This document shows positions 21,498 through 61,953 of a DNA stretch of 64,000 nt, in pieces. The stretch is taken from positions 248,001-312,000 of the forward strand of contig NZ_JABEQE010000003.1 in NCBI RefSeq assembly GCF_014174375.1, written 5' to 3'. Within the stretch, counting starts at the first letter, position 1; the number at the start of each line of letters is the position of its first letter. The translations under genes were made by a program, and so were the position numbers. A model generated the notes under the pieces. It had not been told where the DNA came from. It saw only the letters and a list, made by a program, of their open reading frames with translations, and did not search any database. This stretch comes from Gluconacetobacter asukensis (GTDB lineage: Bacteria > Pseudomonadota > Alphaproteobacteria > Acetobacterales > Acetobacteraceae).

Positions 21498-21548
21498 CGG
21501 AAATCCGACCGTGGAAACCGTGACGCCCGCGGAGTCTGGCGGTGTCAG

Positions 21549-21606
21549 GCCTCTTTAGCGCGTCTGTTTAACCTCGTCGCAAGCCGGCCGATCCAAATCA
21601 CGAGGG
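21549..21606 (-). ncRNA. SAM-II (SAM-alpha) riboswitch upstream of metZ
   Basis: On the minus strand a 5-bp P1 (CCTCG at plus 21601-21605 with CGAGG at 21572-21576) encloses TGATTTG and GCTTGC; it is followed by TTAAAC and then GCGCTAAAGAGG. The order TGATTTG, GCTTGC, P1 3' strand, TTAAA, GCTAAAGAGG is the SAM-II signature known from alphaproteobacterial metA/metZ/metX leaders. It lies about 140 nt ahead of metZ on the same strand. No other riboswitch class fits these conserved blocks. Confidence 0.8.
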
Positions 21607-21735
21607 CCCCGCGGCCCCCTTGGGGCCATTGGACGTCAGGGTTATTGCGGATCGCGGGGCTGCTCGTCAACCATGTGGGGTGGGTGGGGGTGGATTGCAT
21701 CGGGCCGGCCGGTGCGGTATAGGGCTAGCCGCGAC

Positions 21736-21809
21736 GCGGGTGTAGTTCAATGGTAGAACGGCAGCTTCCCAAGCTACATACGAGGGTTCGATTCCCTTCA
21801 CCCGCTCCA
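21736..21809 (+). tRNA. tRNA-Gly (anticodon CCC)
   Basis: 74 nt with an encoded CCA end. Acceptor stem GCGGGTG/CACCCGC, D-arm GTTC/GAAC with loop AATGGTA, anticodon loop TTCCCAA and T-arm with loop TTCGATT. The anticodon is CCC. Position 28-42 of the anticodon stem is C-A in this copy; the other four pairs are intact. Confidence 0.93.
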
Positions 21810-21821
21810 GACTTGCTGATA

Positions 21822-21933
21822 AATTCCGGTTGGTGGCGATCCGACGTGCGTTTTCTGCGCCTCGGTGCCCGGAAGCATGCGATGGCGTGGCCCTGTGCGG
21901 CACTCTCGCTCATCAGGCCGCATTTCTCAGTTG
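21822..21933 (+). repeat. Structured 3'-end repeat, decayed copy B
   Basis: Starts about 13 nt after the tRNA-Gly CCA, in the same direction. The core blocks GGCGATCCGACG and GGCACTCTCGCTCATCAGG are recognisable, but the central GGCC-GGCC hairpin and the paired flanks are lost by an internal deletion of roughly 45 nt. The outer arms no longer pair well. It looks like a relic of the family represented by copies A and C-F. Confidence 0.65.
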
Positions 21934-21960
21934 GCCGTCTGGCCGGGTAGCGGCGGGCCG

Positions 21961-36582: not shown

Positions 36583-36612
36583 CCACGCCGGAACGCGTTG
36601 ATCCCGGCGTGG

Positions 36613-36778
36613 GAGAGGCTGTTCTCCCAGCCGGTCTGCCGAGCGAGAGGGTCGCGAAGCACGCCGCCCGGCGTGTGTTTCCGAGCCTCGGCGCGGAGCG
36701 GCCTTGATGGAAGTGAGCACCGGAGCGCAGGAAACGTGCGTCGGATCGCCGGCAGACCGGCTGGGAGAATAGCCTCTC
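36613..36778 (-). repeat. Structured 3'-end repeat, copy C
   Basis: 166 nt, minus orientation, beginning inside the mlaD TGA. The outer arms 36613-36640 and 36751-36778 form a 28-bp stem with a single G-U pair. Their sequence is unrelated to the arms of copies A, D and E, while the core (GCGATCCGACGCACGTTTCC, CTCCGGTGCTCA, GGAAACACACGCCGGG, CCTCTCGCTC) is conserved. The last hairpin of the core has decayed. It lies between mlaD and pqiC in the operon and could reduce or separate pqiC expression. Confidence 0.9.
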
Positions 36779-37751
36779 ATGGGCGGCGTCCCATTAATAG
36801 GAGTTGCGGATTGCGTTCGACGTCGCTGGCGAAGCCGCGTAGGGCGGCGGCGGCGGCGGACAGGTCGCGCAGGGTGGAGTCGATGTTCGCGCGGTCGGCC
36901 GAGCGGGGCGATGTCATGTCGTGCAGGGCGGACAGGCTGTCGCGGGCCTGGATGACCGTGTCGTTGGCGTTGCGCAGCACTTCATGCAGGTCGGCGCCGC
37001 GGGCGTCGAGCTGCTGGGTGCCGGTATTGGCCAGCCGGTCGATGGCGGTCAGCGTCGTGCTCAGCCGCTGTTCCAGATCCTGGATGGCGTGGGTCGCGCT
37101 GTCGACGGCGATGCGCGAATGGTCGGAGGTCTCTTTGATGCTGTCGACCAGCGGAGGCAGGTCCTGATCCAGCCGTTCGCTCAACTGCTTGATGCTGGCG
37201 AGAGCGGCTTGGGCGTTGTCGGCCAGTTCCTTCAGGGGAAGCTGGGTCAGGGTCTCCTGCACCTTCTGGATCGCGGACTGGCGGGTCGGGATCTCGACCT
37301 CCTTGCCGGACACGATGTCGGGGTGCAGGACCGCAGGGGCGGAAGGGTCGAAATCGAGGTCGATCTCGGCCTGGCCGGTGACGAAGCTTTGCAGGTTCAG
37401 CGACGCGCGCAGCCCGTGGTCGATCATGCTCTGCAGGGTCAGGCTGCGGTGGCTGCCTGACTTGCCGGCGATCGAGATGCGGTTGGGCTGGAGTTCGACC
37501 GTCACCGGGATATAGGCGGCGTGGGTTCGGGCATCATAGGTGATCGAGATGGAATCGACCGCGCCGACCCGTACCCCGCGGAAGGTGACCGACGCGCCGA
37601 TGCTGAGGCCGGAAGTCGAGCCCTGGAACACCACGGTGGCCTGCCTTGTGGGCGAGAAGAGGTTGAAATTTCCGAAGAATATCAAGGCCCCCATGCCCAG
37701 GGCCACGCCCCCGACGACAAAGGCGCCAACGATCGTTTCTCGATTTGCCAT
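36777..37751 (-). CDS. mlaD: MlaD-family MCE-domain phospholipid transport protein
   Basis: 324 residues. One N-terminal membrane anchor (ETIVGAFVVGGVALGMGALI), an MCE domain at residues 35-115 (TVVFQGSTSGLSIGASVTFR), then a long helical C-terminal part with coiled-coil character. It is longer than E. coli MlaD (183 residues) and more like the PqiB/LetB-associated or Mce-type forms. It should form a hexameric ring bridging periplasmic lipid traffic. Genes for the ATPase and permease lie upstream with 3-bp and 1-bp gaps. Confidence 0.88.
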   Translation of the reverse strand: MANRETIVGAFVVGGVALGMGALIFFGNFNLFSPTRQATVVFQGSTSGLSIGASVTFRGVRVGAVDSISITYDARTHAAYIPVTVELQPNRISIAGKSGSHRSLTLQSMIDHGLRASLNLQSFVTGQAEIDLDFDPSAPAVLHPDIVSGKEVEIPTRQSAIQKVQETLTQLPLKELADNAQAALASIKQLSERLDQDLPPLVDSIKETSDHSRIAVDSATHAIQDLEQRLSTTLTAIDRLANTGTQQLDARGADLHEVLRNANDTVIQARDSLSALHDMTSPRSADRANIDSTLRDLSAAAAALRGFASDVERNPQLLLMGRRP

Positions 37752-45466: not shown

Positions 45467-45520
45467 GCCTGGGTATGACCTCCTGGAAGATGGGCCGGGG
45501 CGGGACCGGATCGTCGATCG

Positions 45521-45577
45521 GAGCCTGACTGGACATGCGCGCCGATGGCGATCGGGCGCGCATGTCCAGTCAGGCTC
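45521..45577 (-). terminator. Perfect 23-bp hairpin at the thiM 3' end
   Basis: 45521-45543 pairs without mismatch with 45555-45577 around an 11-nt loop. The right arm overlaps the thiM stop codon and the structure lies just upstream of the mscS-like gene, so it should end or attenuate the thiM transcript. No T-run follows. Its sequence is unrelated to the A-F repeat family, though it also starts at a stop codon. Confidence 0.7.
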
Positions 45578-46415
45578 AGGGAGGCAGGATAGCGATCCGT
45601 GCCTGTCGCGTCACCGTATCGCGATCCAGATGGTACAACATGTCCAGCAGCCGCATTTGCAGGCTGCCCGGTCCGGCGGCCTCGCGCGCCGCGCATTCCC
45701 CCGCCAGGCCGAGCAGGACCATGGCGTGTGCGCAGGCGGCCATGGTGTCGGGTTCCACGGCCAGGCAGGCGCCGGCCAGTGCGGTGGCGGTGCAGCCCAG
45801 CGCGGTGACGCGCGTCATCATCTGGTGTCCGTTCGCCACGGTGGCGACCCGTGTGCCGTCGGTGATGTAGTCGGTGGCGCCGCTGACGGTGACGCAGGCG
45901 CCGGTTGCCTGCGCCAGCCGGCGCGCCGCCGCCAGGGCCTGTTCGGCTGTTTCCAGCGAATCCACGCCGCGCCCGGCGGGCGGTGGCTCGGCGTGGCCGT
46001 CGCGCAGGTGGGCGAGCGCCATGATTTCCGATGCGTTGCCGCGAATCGCCCGCGGGGCGTGGGCCAGGCTGTCCAGCGCGACGCGGGCACGGAAGGGGAG
46101 CGCCCCCACCGCCACCGGATCGAGAATCCATGGTGTGCCGGCATGCTGCGCCGCGCGGGTTGCCCGCGCGATGGCGGCGGCCTGGGGAGCGGTGATGGTG
46201 CCGATATTGACCACCAGAGCGGCCGCCATGGCGGCGAAGGCCTCGACTTCCTCTTCGGCATCGACCATGGCGGGCGAGGCGCCGAGTGCGAGCAGGGCGT
46301 TGGCCGTGCTGTTGGCCGCCACGATATTGGTGATGTTATGGACCAGCGGCGTGGCGGCCCGGACGCGTTCCAGCGTCGTGGCTACGGCGTCGGGCGTGAA
46401 GAGTGCGTTCGACAT
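45576..46415 (-). CDS. thiM: Hydroxyethylthiazole kinase
   Basis: 279 residues from the ATG at 46415. Ribokinase-like fold with TPLVHNITNIVAANSTANAL, ILDPVAVGA, RGNASEI and the ATP/anion-hole segment TALGCTATALAGACLA containing the catalytic cysteine. It phosphorylates the thiazole alcohol for thiamine salvage. No other thi gene and no TPP riboswitch are seen nearby. It follows the RDD gene by 20 bp. Confidence 0.93.
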   Translation of the reverse strand: MSNALFTPDAVATTLERVRAATPLVHNITNIVAANSTANALLALGASPAMVDAEEEVEAFAAMAAALVVNIGTITAPQAAAIARATRAAQHAGTPWILDPVAVGALPFRARVALDSLAHAPRAIRGNASEIMALAHLRDGHAEPPPAGRGVDSLETAEQALAAARRLAQATGACVTVSGATDYITDGTRVATVANGHQMMTRVTALGCTATALAGACLAVEPDTMAACAHAMVLLGLAGECAAREAAGPGSLQMRLLDMLYHLDRDTVTRQARIAILPP

Positions 46416-48396: not shown

Positions 48397-48436
48397 GGTC
48401 GCACCCCCGGTTTCATGTGAAACCGAGGGTGCGACC
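48397..48436 (-). terminator. Hairpin downstream of the parvulin gene
   Basis: 48397-48415 pairs with 48418-48436 (18 of 19 positions, 2-nt loop). It lies 10 bp after the parvulin stop on the minus strand and before argJ, so it should separate the two transcripts. There is no T-run. Confidence 0.65.
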
Positions 48437-48446
48437 GGATGGGTCG

Positions 48447-49388
48447 TTACTTCTTGGCCGGAGCTGCCGGAGCCGCCGCCGGGGCGGGGGTGTCGGCGAT
48501 CGGCTTGCCGCTGGGATCGAAGCGCACGACCTTGACGGCGGAGACCGCCTTTTCGACCGTGTCGCGGACGCTCTGCTGGATCAGCTTCTGGCGGATTTCG
48601 TCACGCACGGCGTCCAGCTTGGGCACGGCGGCGGTACGGGTTTCCAGCACCTCGATCACGTGCCAGCCGTACTGTGTGTGCACCGGAGTCGGGCTGATCG
48701 TGTGGGGCTTCAGCGTGAAGGCGGCATCGGAGAAGGCCGGCAGCATGTCGCCCTTCTTGAACCAGCCCAGGTCGCCGCCATTCTGCTTGGCCGACGCCTT
48801 GTCGGTCGACAGCTTGGTGGCCAGGGCCGCGAAATCGGCGCCGCCCTTGAGCTGCTTGATCACGTCCTTCGCCTCGGCTTCCGTCGCCACCAGGATATGG
48901 CGGGCGTGGATTTCCTGCTCCGGCTTCTTGTTGGCGTAGTTCTGGTCGTAATAGGCCTGGATCGCGGCGTCGGTCAGCGTCGGCGTGACCTTCTGCGACA
49001 GATAGGCGTTCTGCAGCGCGTTGGCGGCGGCGGTCTGCATCTGCTGCTTGACCTCGGGCTGGCTCTCCAGCCCTTCCTTATGCGCCGCGAGCTGGATCGC
49101 CTTCTGGTCGATCAGCTGGTTCAGCAGCATCGGGAAGATCATGTTCGGCGGCAGCTGGCGCAGCTGCTGCGGCATGCTGGCGGCGGCCTGGCGCACGTCG
49201 TCGAGATGGATGTCTTCACCATTCACGCTGGCGACGACGGGGTTCGGGTTGGCCGGGGGCGCCGGCTGGGCCGTGGCGGCGGCGGGCGCGGGCGCTGCGG
49301 CCGGGGCGGCATGGGCATGAGGAATGGAAAGCGCAGGAACGAGCAGGGCTGCCGCCAGAATGGAGGCTGCCGGGCTGGAAGGCCGCAT
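48447..49388 (-). CDS. Periplasmic parvulin-type peptidyl-prolyl isomerase (foldase)
   Basis: 313 residues. Signal peptide ([19 protein letters not shown]), an Ala/Pro linker, an N-terminal SurA-like helical domain ([17 protein letters not shown]) and one parvulin domain ([19 protein letters not shown] ... [13 protein letters not shown] ... [12 protein letters not shown]). Only one parvulin domain, unlike SurA with two. The C-terminal tail is Ala/Pro-rich. It should help fold outer-membrane or secreted proteins; it diverges from secA across 231 bp. Confidence 0.88.
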
Positions 49389-49619
49389 GTGTTGAGAACC
49401 CTAAGATATAAAGCGTCCGAGGCATCATGGCCGAGGCCGCCCGGTCCTGCAAGGCTGGGCGGGACGGGGCTTTGGAAACAGCCTCTCGGGCCGGCTTCGG
49501 TTGACCGGTGGCGGTGTGGGTCCTATCTCAGATGCCGCGCGCGAGAATGCCCTTGCTCCAGTTTCAGCCCGTCCGGGGGTCCGGCCGGGTGTGGGGCCGC
49601 GCCATTCCGGAAGGTCTAC

Positions 49620-52351
<2,732 letters not shown>

Positions 52352-52352
<1 letters not shown>

Positions 52353-52515
52353 ATGTTGGCCCGGAAACGCGCGCTGGTGGCGATCCGTCGCGCGTTTCCT
52401 GCGCTCCGGTGCTCACGGCCTATCAGGCCGCTCCGCTCCGGTGCTCGGAAGCACGCGACGGGCGCGGCCCTTCGGGCCGCTCTCGCTCACCAGCCCACGT
52501 TTCCGGGCCAACATT
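52352..52515 (+). repeat. Structured 3'-end repeat, copy D
   Basis: 164 nt beginning at the last base of the secA TGA. Arms 52352-52369 and 52498-52515 pair perfectly over 18 bp; after a 3x3 internal loop the stem resumes with GCTGGTG/CACCAGC. Inner stem GTTTCC (52394-52399) with GGAAGC (52447-52452), hairpin GGCC-TATCA-GGCC, and hairpin GCGGCCC-TTC-GGGCCGC. It fills most of the gap between secA and yebC. Confidence 0.92.
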
Positions 52516-52570
52516 GAGTGGGGCGGATCGGCGGTTTTGATGAAGATCTAGAGATTAGAGAAGACGGACG

Positions 52571-60641: not shown

Positions 60642-61592
60642 ATGCGGTCTGTTGCCTTCCGCCCTTTTTCGCCGTTTCGACATCGCGGGGGGCTGACCCC
60701 GCGCGCAAGGGGGCTGGCGATCCTGACCCTGCTGGCCGGCCTGTCGCCGCTGGCGGTCCGGGCGCAGGATACCGAGCAGATGACGAGTCGTGAGGGGATC
60801 GCGCTGCAGAACCAGATCATGGATCTGCGCCAGCAGCTTTCGCAGATGCAGTCGGCGGCGCCCTGGGGCCAGGGACAGGGGAACGGGCAGGGCAATGGCA
60901 TCCTTCCGCCACCCGCGCCCGAGGCTGGCGGCAATGGCGGCCCGCCGGCCGGTGGCGACCTGACGGCGCAATTGCTGGACCGGGTGATGACCCTGGAGCA
61001 GCAGGTGCGCGACATGCGCGGGCAGCTCGACCAGCTGACCAACCAGGTGCAGCAGCAGAATGCGACCCTGGCGAAGCAGATCGACGACATGAATTTCGCC
61101 ATGCAGAATGGTGGCCACCCGGCGCCCCGACCGGCGGCCGGGCCGGATGCGATCCCTGCCGAGGCTGCCCCGGCTGCCGCCGGTGCCGGGGAGGCGCCAG
61201 CGGCCAAATCCACGCCCGAAACCGTGCTGCGGGACGGCAATGCGGCCCTGATGCATGGGGATTATGCGGCGGCGCAGGCGGCCGCCAAGCAGGTGCTGGC
61301 CGGCCCGCGTGGCCCGTTGCAGATCGACGCGCAATTCCTGCTGGCGCAGTCGCTGGCCGGGCAGAAGCAGTATCGGCAGTCGGCCGTCGCCTATTACGAT
61401 ACCTATAACCGCTCGCCGCGCTCCGGCCGGGCGCCGGATGCGCTGCTGGGCGTGACGGCGTCGCTGCTGGCGATGGGGGACAAGAATTCGGCATGCCAGG
61501 CCCTGGCCAAGCTGAAGAGCGAGTTCCCGTCGCCGGCGCCGCGCGTCAAGACGGCTGAGGCGGCCTACCGCACCCGCGCCGGATGCCACTGA
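60642..61592 (+). CDS. cpoB: Cell division coordinator CpoB (YbgF)
   Basis: 316 residues. Signal sequence (LAILTLLAGLSPLAVRAQ), a coiled-coil trimerisation segment (LLDRVMTLEQQVRDMRGQL ... NQVQQQNATLAKQ), an Ala/Pro linker and C-terminal TPR-like repeats (LRDGNAALMHGDYAAAQAAA, AQFLLAQSLAGQKQYRQSA, DALLGVTASLLAMGDK). It couples Tol-Pal to peptidoglycan synthesis in other bacteria. Its TGA begins repeat copy E. Confidence 0.9.
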   Translation: MRSVAFRPFSPFRHRGGLTPRARGLAILTLLAGLSPLAVRAQDTEQMTSREGIALQNQIMDLRQQLSQMQSAAPWGQGQGNGQGNGILPPPAPEAGGNGGPPAGGDLTAQLLDRVMTLEQQVRDMRGQLDQLTNQVQQQNATLAKQIDDMNFAMQNGGHPAPRPAAGPDAIPAEAAPAAAGAGEAPAAKSTPETVLRDGNAALMHGDYAAAQAAAKQVLAGPRGPLQIDAQFLLAQSLAGQKQYRQSAVAYYDTYNRSPRSGRAPDALLGVTASLLAMGDKNSACQALAKLKSEFPSPAPRVKTAEAAYRTRAGCH

Positions 61593-61593
61593 G

Positions 61594-61753
61594 AGCGTGA
61601 CCGGAGATGCGCGCTGGCGGCGATCCGACGCGCGTTTCCTGTGCTCCGGTGCTCACGGCCGATAAGGCCGCTCCGCTCCGGTGCTCGGAAACCCACGCCG
61701 GGCGCGGCCCTGCGGGCCGCTCTCGCTCGCCAGCCCACATCTCCGGTCACGCT
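61594..61753 (+). repeat. Structured 3'-end repeat, copy E
   Basis: 160 nt starting within 2 nt of the cpoB TGA. Arms 61594-61609 and 61738-61753 pair perfectly over 16 bp and are followed by TTTT, so this copy has intrinsic-terminator form. Core hairpins GGCC-GATAA-GGCC and GCGGCCC-TGC-GGGCCGC and the inner stem GTTTCC/GGAAAC are intact. It is the cleanest copy in the window. Confidence 0.93.
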
Positions 61754-61800
61754 TTTGAGCCCGGCCTGTCGAAGGGGCTCCGTCGGAGGGGTGAAGAGGT

Positions 61801-61953
61801 GGAGATGCGCGCTGGCGGTGATCCGACGCGCGTTTCCTGTGCTCCGGTGCTCACGGCCATCAAGGCCGCTCCGCGCCGAGGCTCGGAAACGCACACCGGG
61901 CGCGGCCCTGTGGGCCGCTCTCGCTCGCCAGCCCGCATCTCCGGTCACGCTCC
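61801..61953 (+). repeat. Structured 3'-end repeat, copy F (tandem to E)
   Basis: The second member of a direct duplication with a period of about 200 bp: core and right flank (CATCTCCGGTCACGCT-like end, then GAGCCCGGCC) repeat those of copy E. The left arm is shortened to GGAGATG (61801-61807), pairing with CATCTCC (61938-61944). It lies 40 bp before tilS and is the only intact copy that does not start at a stop codon. Confidence 0.88.

Follow-up and report, generated by a model that had tools for sequence, protein, structure and literature searches.

Structured repeats with IS5-type ends and a conserved core lie mostly in sense direction behind stop codons of Gluconacetobacter genes

Integron attC sites are hairpins with variable arms that lie directly 3' of stop codons in the sense direction, and REP sequences are tied to the Y1 transposases known as RAYTs. 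As given in the available portions of the respective papers, REPs are 20–40 bp long (PMC3733652), stall ribosomes when situated at most 15 nt from a stop codon (Liang 2015, as cited in PMC5082802 and PMC12306157), and in RepRanger fall within 15 nt of a stop codon in 446 of 4,072 cases (PMC12306157). The available excerpts further describe the CIR elements of Caulobacter and Brucella (Chen and Shapiro 2003, via PMC2229807 and PMC10969869) as intergenic structured repeats of about 110 bp, and ERIC, Correia/NEMIS and YPAL as mobile repeats of about 100–170 nt that form long stem-loops (PMC2229807, PMC2759123). The repeat family analyzed here, taken from a 64-kb stretch of the Gluconacetobacter asukensis genome (hereafter the window), combines inverted-repeat ends of IS5-family type with a conserved core whose paired positions covary, and it sits mostly in sense direction behind the stop codons of genes.

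A sequence-only reading of this DNA had listed six copies of a dispersed structured family with a conserved core and arms that vary yet remain paired. A covariance model built from 30 copies recovered all six, one of them degenerate, and a short hairpin derivative makes a seventh:

61593–61754, + strand: full element with terminal inverted repeat (TIR) GAGCGTGACCGG..., core, side hairpin and closing TIR, 162 bases edge to edge
61801–61948, + strand: tandem duplicate of the 61593 copy including its 3' flank, with shortened 5' arm
52353–52514, + strand: full element with divergent TIR ATGTTGGCCCGG
36615–36776, − strand: full element with divergent TIR GAGGCTATTCTCCCAGCC, 3' of the TGA stop of ORF 36777–37751 (−)
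2065–2226, − strand: full element with TIR GAGCGTGGCCG, 3' of the TGA stop at 2227–2229 (−)
21822–21933, + strand: degenerate copy with internal deletion, about 15 bases 3' of a tRNA gene at 21736–21806 (+)
45517–45580, + strand: short hairpin derivative almost without core, TIR GAGCCTGACTGGACATGCGCGC plus its complement

The model scored 189.8 bits at 61589–61757 (+), 186.2 at 52349–52517 (+), 177.5 at 2062–2230 (−), 158.4 at 36612–36780 (−), 148.8 at 61787–61951 (+) and 56.8 for the degenerate copy at 21805–21940 (+), values that are partly high by construction because five of the six window copies sat in the training set. Folding of two single copies gave stabilities far above those of shuffled sequences (z −8.1 and −10.7). 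In agreement with the earlier view that this is not a known Rfam family, no relevant match above the gathering score was found in the window and loose family scans returned chance-level matches only. An ordinary SAM_alpha riboswitch lies at 21534–21614 (−), near the tRNA gene and the degenerate copy. The 61593–61754 copy begins directly 3' of the TGA at 61590–61592 that ends ORF 60642–61592 (+), and a second TGA follows at 61756–61758; likewise, the TGA stop at 52350–52352 of ORF 48417–52352 (+) precedes the 52353–52514 copy and the same triplet recurs at 52515–52517. Tandem arrays occur in the window (61593–61948) and elsewhere in the genome (C2:156545–157075, C1:406314–406646 and C33:9696–10006); their repeating unit takes in the 3' flank of the element, and the pairing of the 5' arm is lost in later copies.

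The shape of the element is a single long stem carrying a single side hairpin, which replaces the three nested stems proposed from the letters. In 96 anchored copies the arms, followed outward from the core, are paired over 27 positions including two conserved mismatches and then fall to chance in one step: the Watson-Crick share is at least 0.64 through position 26, except at the conserved mismatches (0.25 and 0.32), and 0.21–0.33 beyond. Thus the outer arms do differ in sequence between copies, as had been claimed, but their length is fixed rather than ranging over 13–28 bp. The last paired base is part of a flanking T-N-A triplet, so that the foot of the arm is the stop codon or target triplet itself. 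Inside this triplet follow about 26 highly variable bases (GAGCCTGNNNGGAAATGCGC...), whose changes are matched on the opposite arm, then an GCGCGCTGG segment, a long stem with interruptions that holds the core motif CTGYGCTYCGGTGCTCA-hairpin-CTCCGCTCCGRTGCTCG, and the side hairpin. The copies of the own genome were narrowed from 137 matches to 122 sequences, 106 with at least 100 bits, 96 that could be anchored (10 failed) and finally 75 after removal of 21 with poorly paired arms; among these 75, which were chosen for pairing at 12 or more of 17 outer positions, 1194 of 1275 outer arm cells are Watson-Crick pairs. Changes on both sides of a pair were seen at 26 of 59 pairs in 30 copies, compared to 11.3 in shuffles and 10–15 in slid controls, which bears out the variable but paired arms of the earlier reading. 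An alignment of 32 cores from seven genera and two families shows both-side changes at 18 of 21 pairs and twelve invariant columns, with conserved bases also at unpaired positions. The ends are more variable than the core (1.07 versus 0.45 bits for 17 TIR positions and the first 45 core positions, respectively), a comparison open to bias because copies were picked up by their similarity to the element or its core.

The family is by no means confined to a few places, the condition under which the sequence-only reading would have failed. With 150 candidates scored, the covariance model finds 137 or more copies in the 4.39-Mb own genome at an E-value of 0.01, the weakest of which are fragments, and copies are present in all 13 Gluconacetobacter congeners. 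The true copy number is probably higher, since assembly contigs stop in or near copies (C13:101, C21:46, C3:327977). Among the matches listed, the long stretches of C7, C9 and C2 beyond 181 kb hold 0–1 copy, compared to 41 in 532 kb on C1. For other genera of the Acetobacteraceae the same search returned matches in 5 of 22 genomes and none in the remaining 17. In other Acetobacteraceae the core is accompanied by different arms (38 matches in G014, seven each in G017 and G020, two in G019 and one in G032), and the same holds for ten core matches in G045, which lies outside this family. A search with a core-only model at E 1e-4 gave matches in 42 of 398 Pseudomonadota genomes, namely the own genome, 20 of the same class whose best E never exceeds 1e-9, and 21 of other classes where the matches are weak (best 2e-8); the matches outside the Alphaproteobacteria need to be taken with care. 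At E 1e-6 the core-only model matched 21 of 385 genomes of the same class. We found no description of this family in the literature on Gluconacetobacter repeats and MITEs, stop-codon MITEs, REP, CIR/RIME/Bru-RS and alphaproteobacterial repeats, in which subscription journals are thinly covered and the sequences of RIME, Bru-RS and CIR lie outside the comparison.

Using a transposase of the own genome that belongs to NF033580 (IS5 family), we located IS5-family relatives with 68% and 48% similarity. In two genomes of G. diazotrophicus type the transposase genes are bounded by GAGCCTGTTTGGAAAG (883 bp) and GAGCCCGATCCGAAAG (930 bp), and the 24 rows of this set, two of which repeat others, correspond to 22 distinct copies. 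Flanking triplets are identical in 19 of these 22, a count that profits from an end-finder favouring duplications and may include copies common to both genomes. The outer 15 bases of the element agree with the better of the two IS5-family TIRs at 10.5 of 15 positions on average, compared to 4.5 after shuffling, and two copies agree at all 15. We take such ends to be of the IS1031 type. By eye, two element copies of G045 begin with AGAACC at the arm, like the ends of an IS5-family locus in that genome, while its other copies differ; among the best inverted repeats of the DUF4096 loci L099–L102 and L104, ends of the element type were absent. Judged by this sequence likeness, the variable arms are IS5-family-type TIRs with a TNA target. 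The element itself lacks a transposase gene, and its copies are dispersed and polymorphic between species.

Comparison of orthologous sites shows that the element has inserted at natural stop codons and duplicated its target there. At the 61594 site, nine of the twelve congeners in which it was recovered (it was not in G013) have an empty form with intact stop codon and short spacer. The insertion is common to the own genome, G004 and G007, the latter two with one full copy plus a remnant, and in G006 this stop codon has another copy, one that is truncated. Orthologous flanks of 20 own sites were searched in five congeners and regions taken from four, giving 78 regions of which 26 were labelled filled; the labels follow a simple BLAST rule that scores remnants as empty, so the junction sequences are the better evidence. 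Four own sites with an empty counterpart display a duplicated TGA or TCA: C27:16388, C19:44908, C3:188171 (TCA) and C12:96153. At C27:16388 the empty form reads CTGA|ATACG and the 5' duplicate is now TGG in the own genome. Many other sites hold shortened hairpins or different arms, and at C3:300349 G004 and G010 have other arms beside near-identical flanks; turnover at element-bearing stop codons looks high. Coreless hairpins of TIR plus complement were observed in the window (45517–45580) and as a mini hairpin in G004 (locus L195, own site C3:176846), where the hairpin is at a stop codon at which the own genome has a full copy; they are probably collapsed or separately moving derivatives. Across the 75 own copies the flanking triplets are identical in 17, compared to 9.7 in shuffles (maximum of 2000: 18), meaning that most duplications have decayed or that some copies are of other origin. 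Two plasmid copies have CTAG at both edges, and two more have TTAG/CTAG; CTAG is presumably an IS5-type target. With its IS5-type TIR arms and target duplications, the element behaves like a MITE. A family of cis-regulatory elements or small RNAs that does not move and is copied along with genes would accommodate the covariation, the conserved core and small RNAs from Thalassospira (see below), yet the empty sites with intact flanks, the duplications and the finding of unlike copies at a single site in closely related species contradict it, and we give it hardly any credence.

The sequence-only reading was silent on the position relative to stop codons, on strand bias, on mobility and on spread beyond the Acetobacteraceae. 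In the own genome, a same-strand gene stop falls at the 5' edge (−12 to +30) in 53 of 75 copies, compared to 5 of 75 on the mirror side, and the flanking triplet itself is the sense stop in 30, with two exact cases on the mirror side. For other Gluconacetobacter species a sense stop is near in 51 of 62 copies and exact in 37, an antisense stop near in 13 and exact in none; this set includes insertions shared between species, 18 places that were badly anchored or unpaired were dropped from it, and places near locus ends were skipped. ORFs for both sets were called by a GC3 rule, not taken from curated annotation. Two further copy sets gave 18 of 30 sense stops versus 5 and 20 of 29 versus 5, whereas later loci of the class, scored with less strict ORF calling and over a wide span, gave 20 of 23 sense and 9 of 23 antisense and are accorded low weight. 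Stop codons make up 44 of the 489 non-coding TNA sites of the window, which puts the share of random insertions expected in sense at a stop at about 4.5%; the exact-stop shares have P values of about 4e-21 and 7e-34, with copies treated as independent despite the shared insertions in the other-Gluconacetobacter set. The same position recurs in other families: from 34 matching plasmid records 14 regions were chosen, one of them without annotation, and in 10 of the 13 annotated copies a sense CDS ends 15–36 bases 5' of the core, which puts its end at the element edge or no more than about 10 bases from it. These ten stem from Sphingobium, Shinella, Novosphingobium, Aminobacter, Allorhizobium and Agrobacterium; the three exceptions are one copy of Sphingobium and the two of Phyllobacterium.

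This position could in principle follow from a neutral MITE whose TNA or YTAG target preference coincides with stop codons and which is purged from genes, core and structure being without function. Empty sites and duplications fit such an element, and targets can indeed coincide with stops, the stop being TAG in six of the ten plasmid copies at a CDS end, and CTAG at both edges of two copies. We regard this account as distinctly unlikely, because so few non-coding TNA sites of the window are stops (44 of 489), because the core occurs in other families with other ends, and because strand biases of 53:5 and 51:13 exist despite a TGA:TCA ratio of 7:6 at non-stop sites. The latter ratio ties the bias to the gene rather than to the triplet, and a TGA over TCA target as its origin was rejected. 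The IS5-family copies with like ends are at a stop codon in 2 of 22 cases by ORF edge, eight having no callable ORF on either side; a preference of the IS itself for stop codons is thus unsupported as far as ORFs are callable, and the transposase alone is insufficient to explain the position.

Alternatively, insertion might be linked to the end of transcription or translation, which would bring the element in at stops in one strand direction. Identical TNA triplets flank 16 own copies, of which eleven lie exactly at a sense stop and one lies at an antisense stop; as the bias is already present in copies with intact duplications, this favours targeting or fast selection, and the different truncated copy at the 61594 stop in G006 also speaks for targeting. 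On the other hand, related IS copies lack a stop preference, again as far as ORFs are callable, and we know of no IS5-family member with termination-coupled insertion. We hold such targeting to be unlikely; the bias for stop codons and strand may come from targeting or from selection.

For Thalassospira lucentensis, Table 5 of PMC6413936 gives two small RNAs of 22 nt that the authors read as miRNAs; both match exactly the sense strand of one core in genome G414, making this genome likely a Thalassospira. On the strength of this sequence identity, we read the 'miRNAs' as putative fragments of the element core. For the arms, mismatches on the sense strand of 141 Gluconacetobacter copies comprise 58 A-C and 22 G-U (P 7e-5), while the core has 9 G-U and 12 A-C; as G-U is rarer than A-C in both, there is no sign of selection for a sense RNA helix, and for the arms the result ran opposite to such selection. 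The A-C excess in the arms is of the kind that would be expected if it were the opposite strand that folds. Within 20 bases 3' of the element, 5 of 75 copies have a run of at least four T (mirror control 1 of 75), and two plasmid copies lie between same-strand, operon-like genes, so that a plain intrinsic terminator is unlikely.

These mismatches bear on a further possibility, in which the element works as folded single-stranded DNA, either for an HUH transposase as with REP/RAYT or as an attC-like recombination substrate. Pairs maintained without G-U preference, A-C mismatches that equal T-G on the bottom strand, conserved bases at unpaired core positions and the place behind genes, as for attC, would all suit it. 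Still, the Y1 transposase domain PF01797 had no match in the own genome, a 64-contig draft, while 5 of 14 control genomes were positive, and mobilisation by HUH/RAYT was rejected for this reason; the motifs RYYYAAC and GTTRRRY were near the edges in 0 and 0 of the 75 own copies, which led us to reject attC identity, and target duplications argue in the same direction. We consider a single-stranded working form improbable.

On balance, the family is rather probably a non-autonomous, MITE-like transposable hairpin made of two separate modules, IS5-type ends and a conserved core. The ends would be moved in trans by IS5-family transposases, the particular enzyme being suggested by likeness of ends, with duplication of a short target that is TNA here and YTAG in some sphingomonad and Shinella copies, and the inner module is a conserved structured core common to Alphaproteobacteria. 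Arm complementarity may be kept by template-switch recopying of the snap-back palindrome, helped by selection on the hairpin. Copies might then survive where the duplicated target preserves the stop codon, and the sense direction could be retained since the transcribed core acts in the mRNA 3' end, as a shield against 3' decay or on ribosomes at the stop, in the manner of REP. Of the options weighed, we tentatively choose such persistence through a kept stop and a sense function of the core at the mRNA 3' end. More speculative, though conceivable, is the wider proposition that lineages keep one structured core for a host-side job, swap the inverted-repeat ends to suit the available IS5-type transposase and let the element enter or survive mainly at natural stops in gene direction, which would make it a mobile, stop-codon-restoring 3' UTR across Alphaproteobacteria. 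Mobile elements are expected to have constant ends, a free interior and no regard for gene direction, whereas in this family the interior varies less than the ends, and stop codon and strand fix the position nearly to the base. If this holds up, a widespread and overlooked kind of element shapes gene ends. Two questions become testable: whether many genes can draw their 3' UTR ready-made from a mobile element, and how gene direction is recognised by insertion or by selection. With the core model the family can be sought in other genomes and RNA data such as the Thalassospira 'miRNAs' re-read.

Compared to the known systems, the element resembles attC in being a hairpin with variable arms in sense direction behind stop codons, and E. 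coli REP/BIME in forming 3' UTR hairpins close behind stop codons, but at about 162 bases with IS5-type ends it differs from the 20–40-nt REP unit. With CIR, compared by description only, it shares the character of structured intergenic repeats of Alphaproteobacteria. According to the available description CIR consists of two arms and a linker, without end-to-end pairing and with GANTC in the loop, while GANTC is present in 2 of 75 own copies and never within the core (anywhere in the stretch, in 11 of 15 stretches of other Acetobacteraceae); identity with CIR looks unlikely on this basis. ERIC, Correia/NEMIS and YPAL have other ends, mostly TA-terminated in the accessible part of PMC2229807, and belong to other lineages. 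The earlier suggestion that no described element has a like design did not survive, as the arms correspond to IS5-type TIRs with target duplications in MITE fashion and the stop-codon position recalls E. coli REP. The element differs from IS5-family MITEs in TIRs that vary more than the core, in its sense position 3' of stops and in a core common to several families, and it is like them in the sequence type of its TIRs, the TNA duplication, the many copies and the non-coding nature, to which mobilisation in trans may be added.
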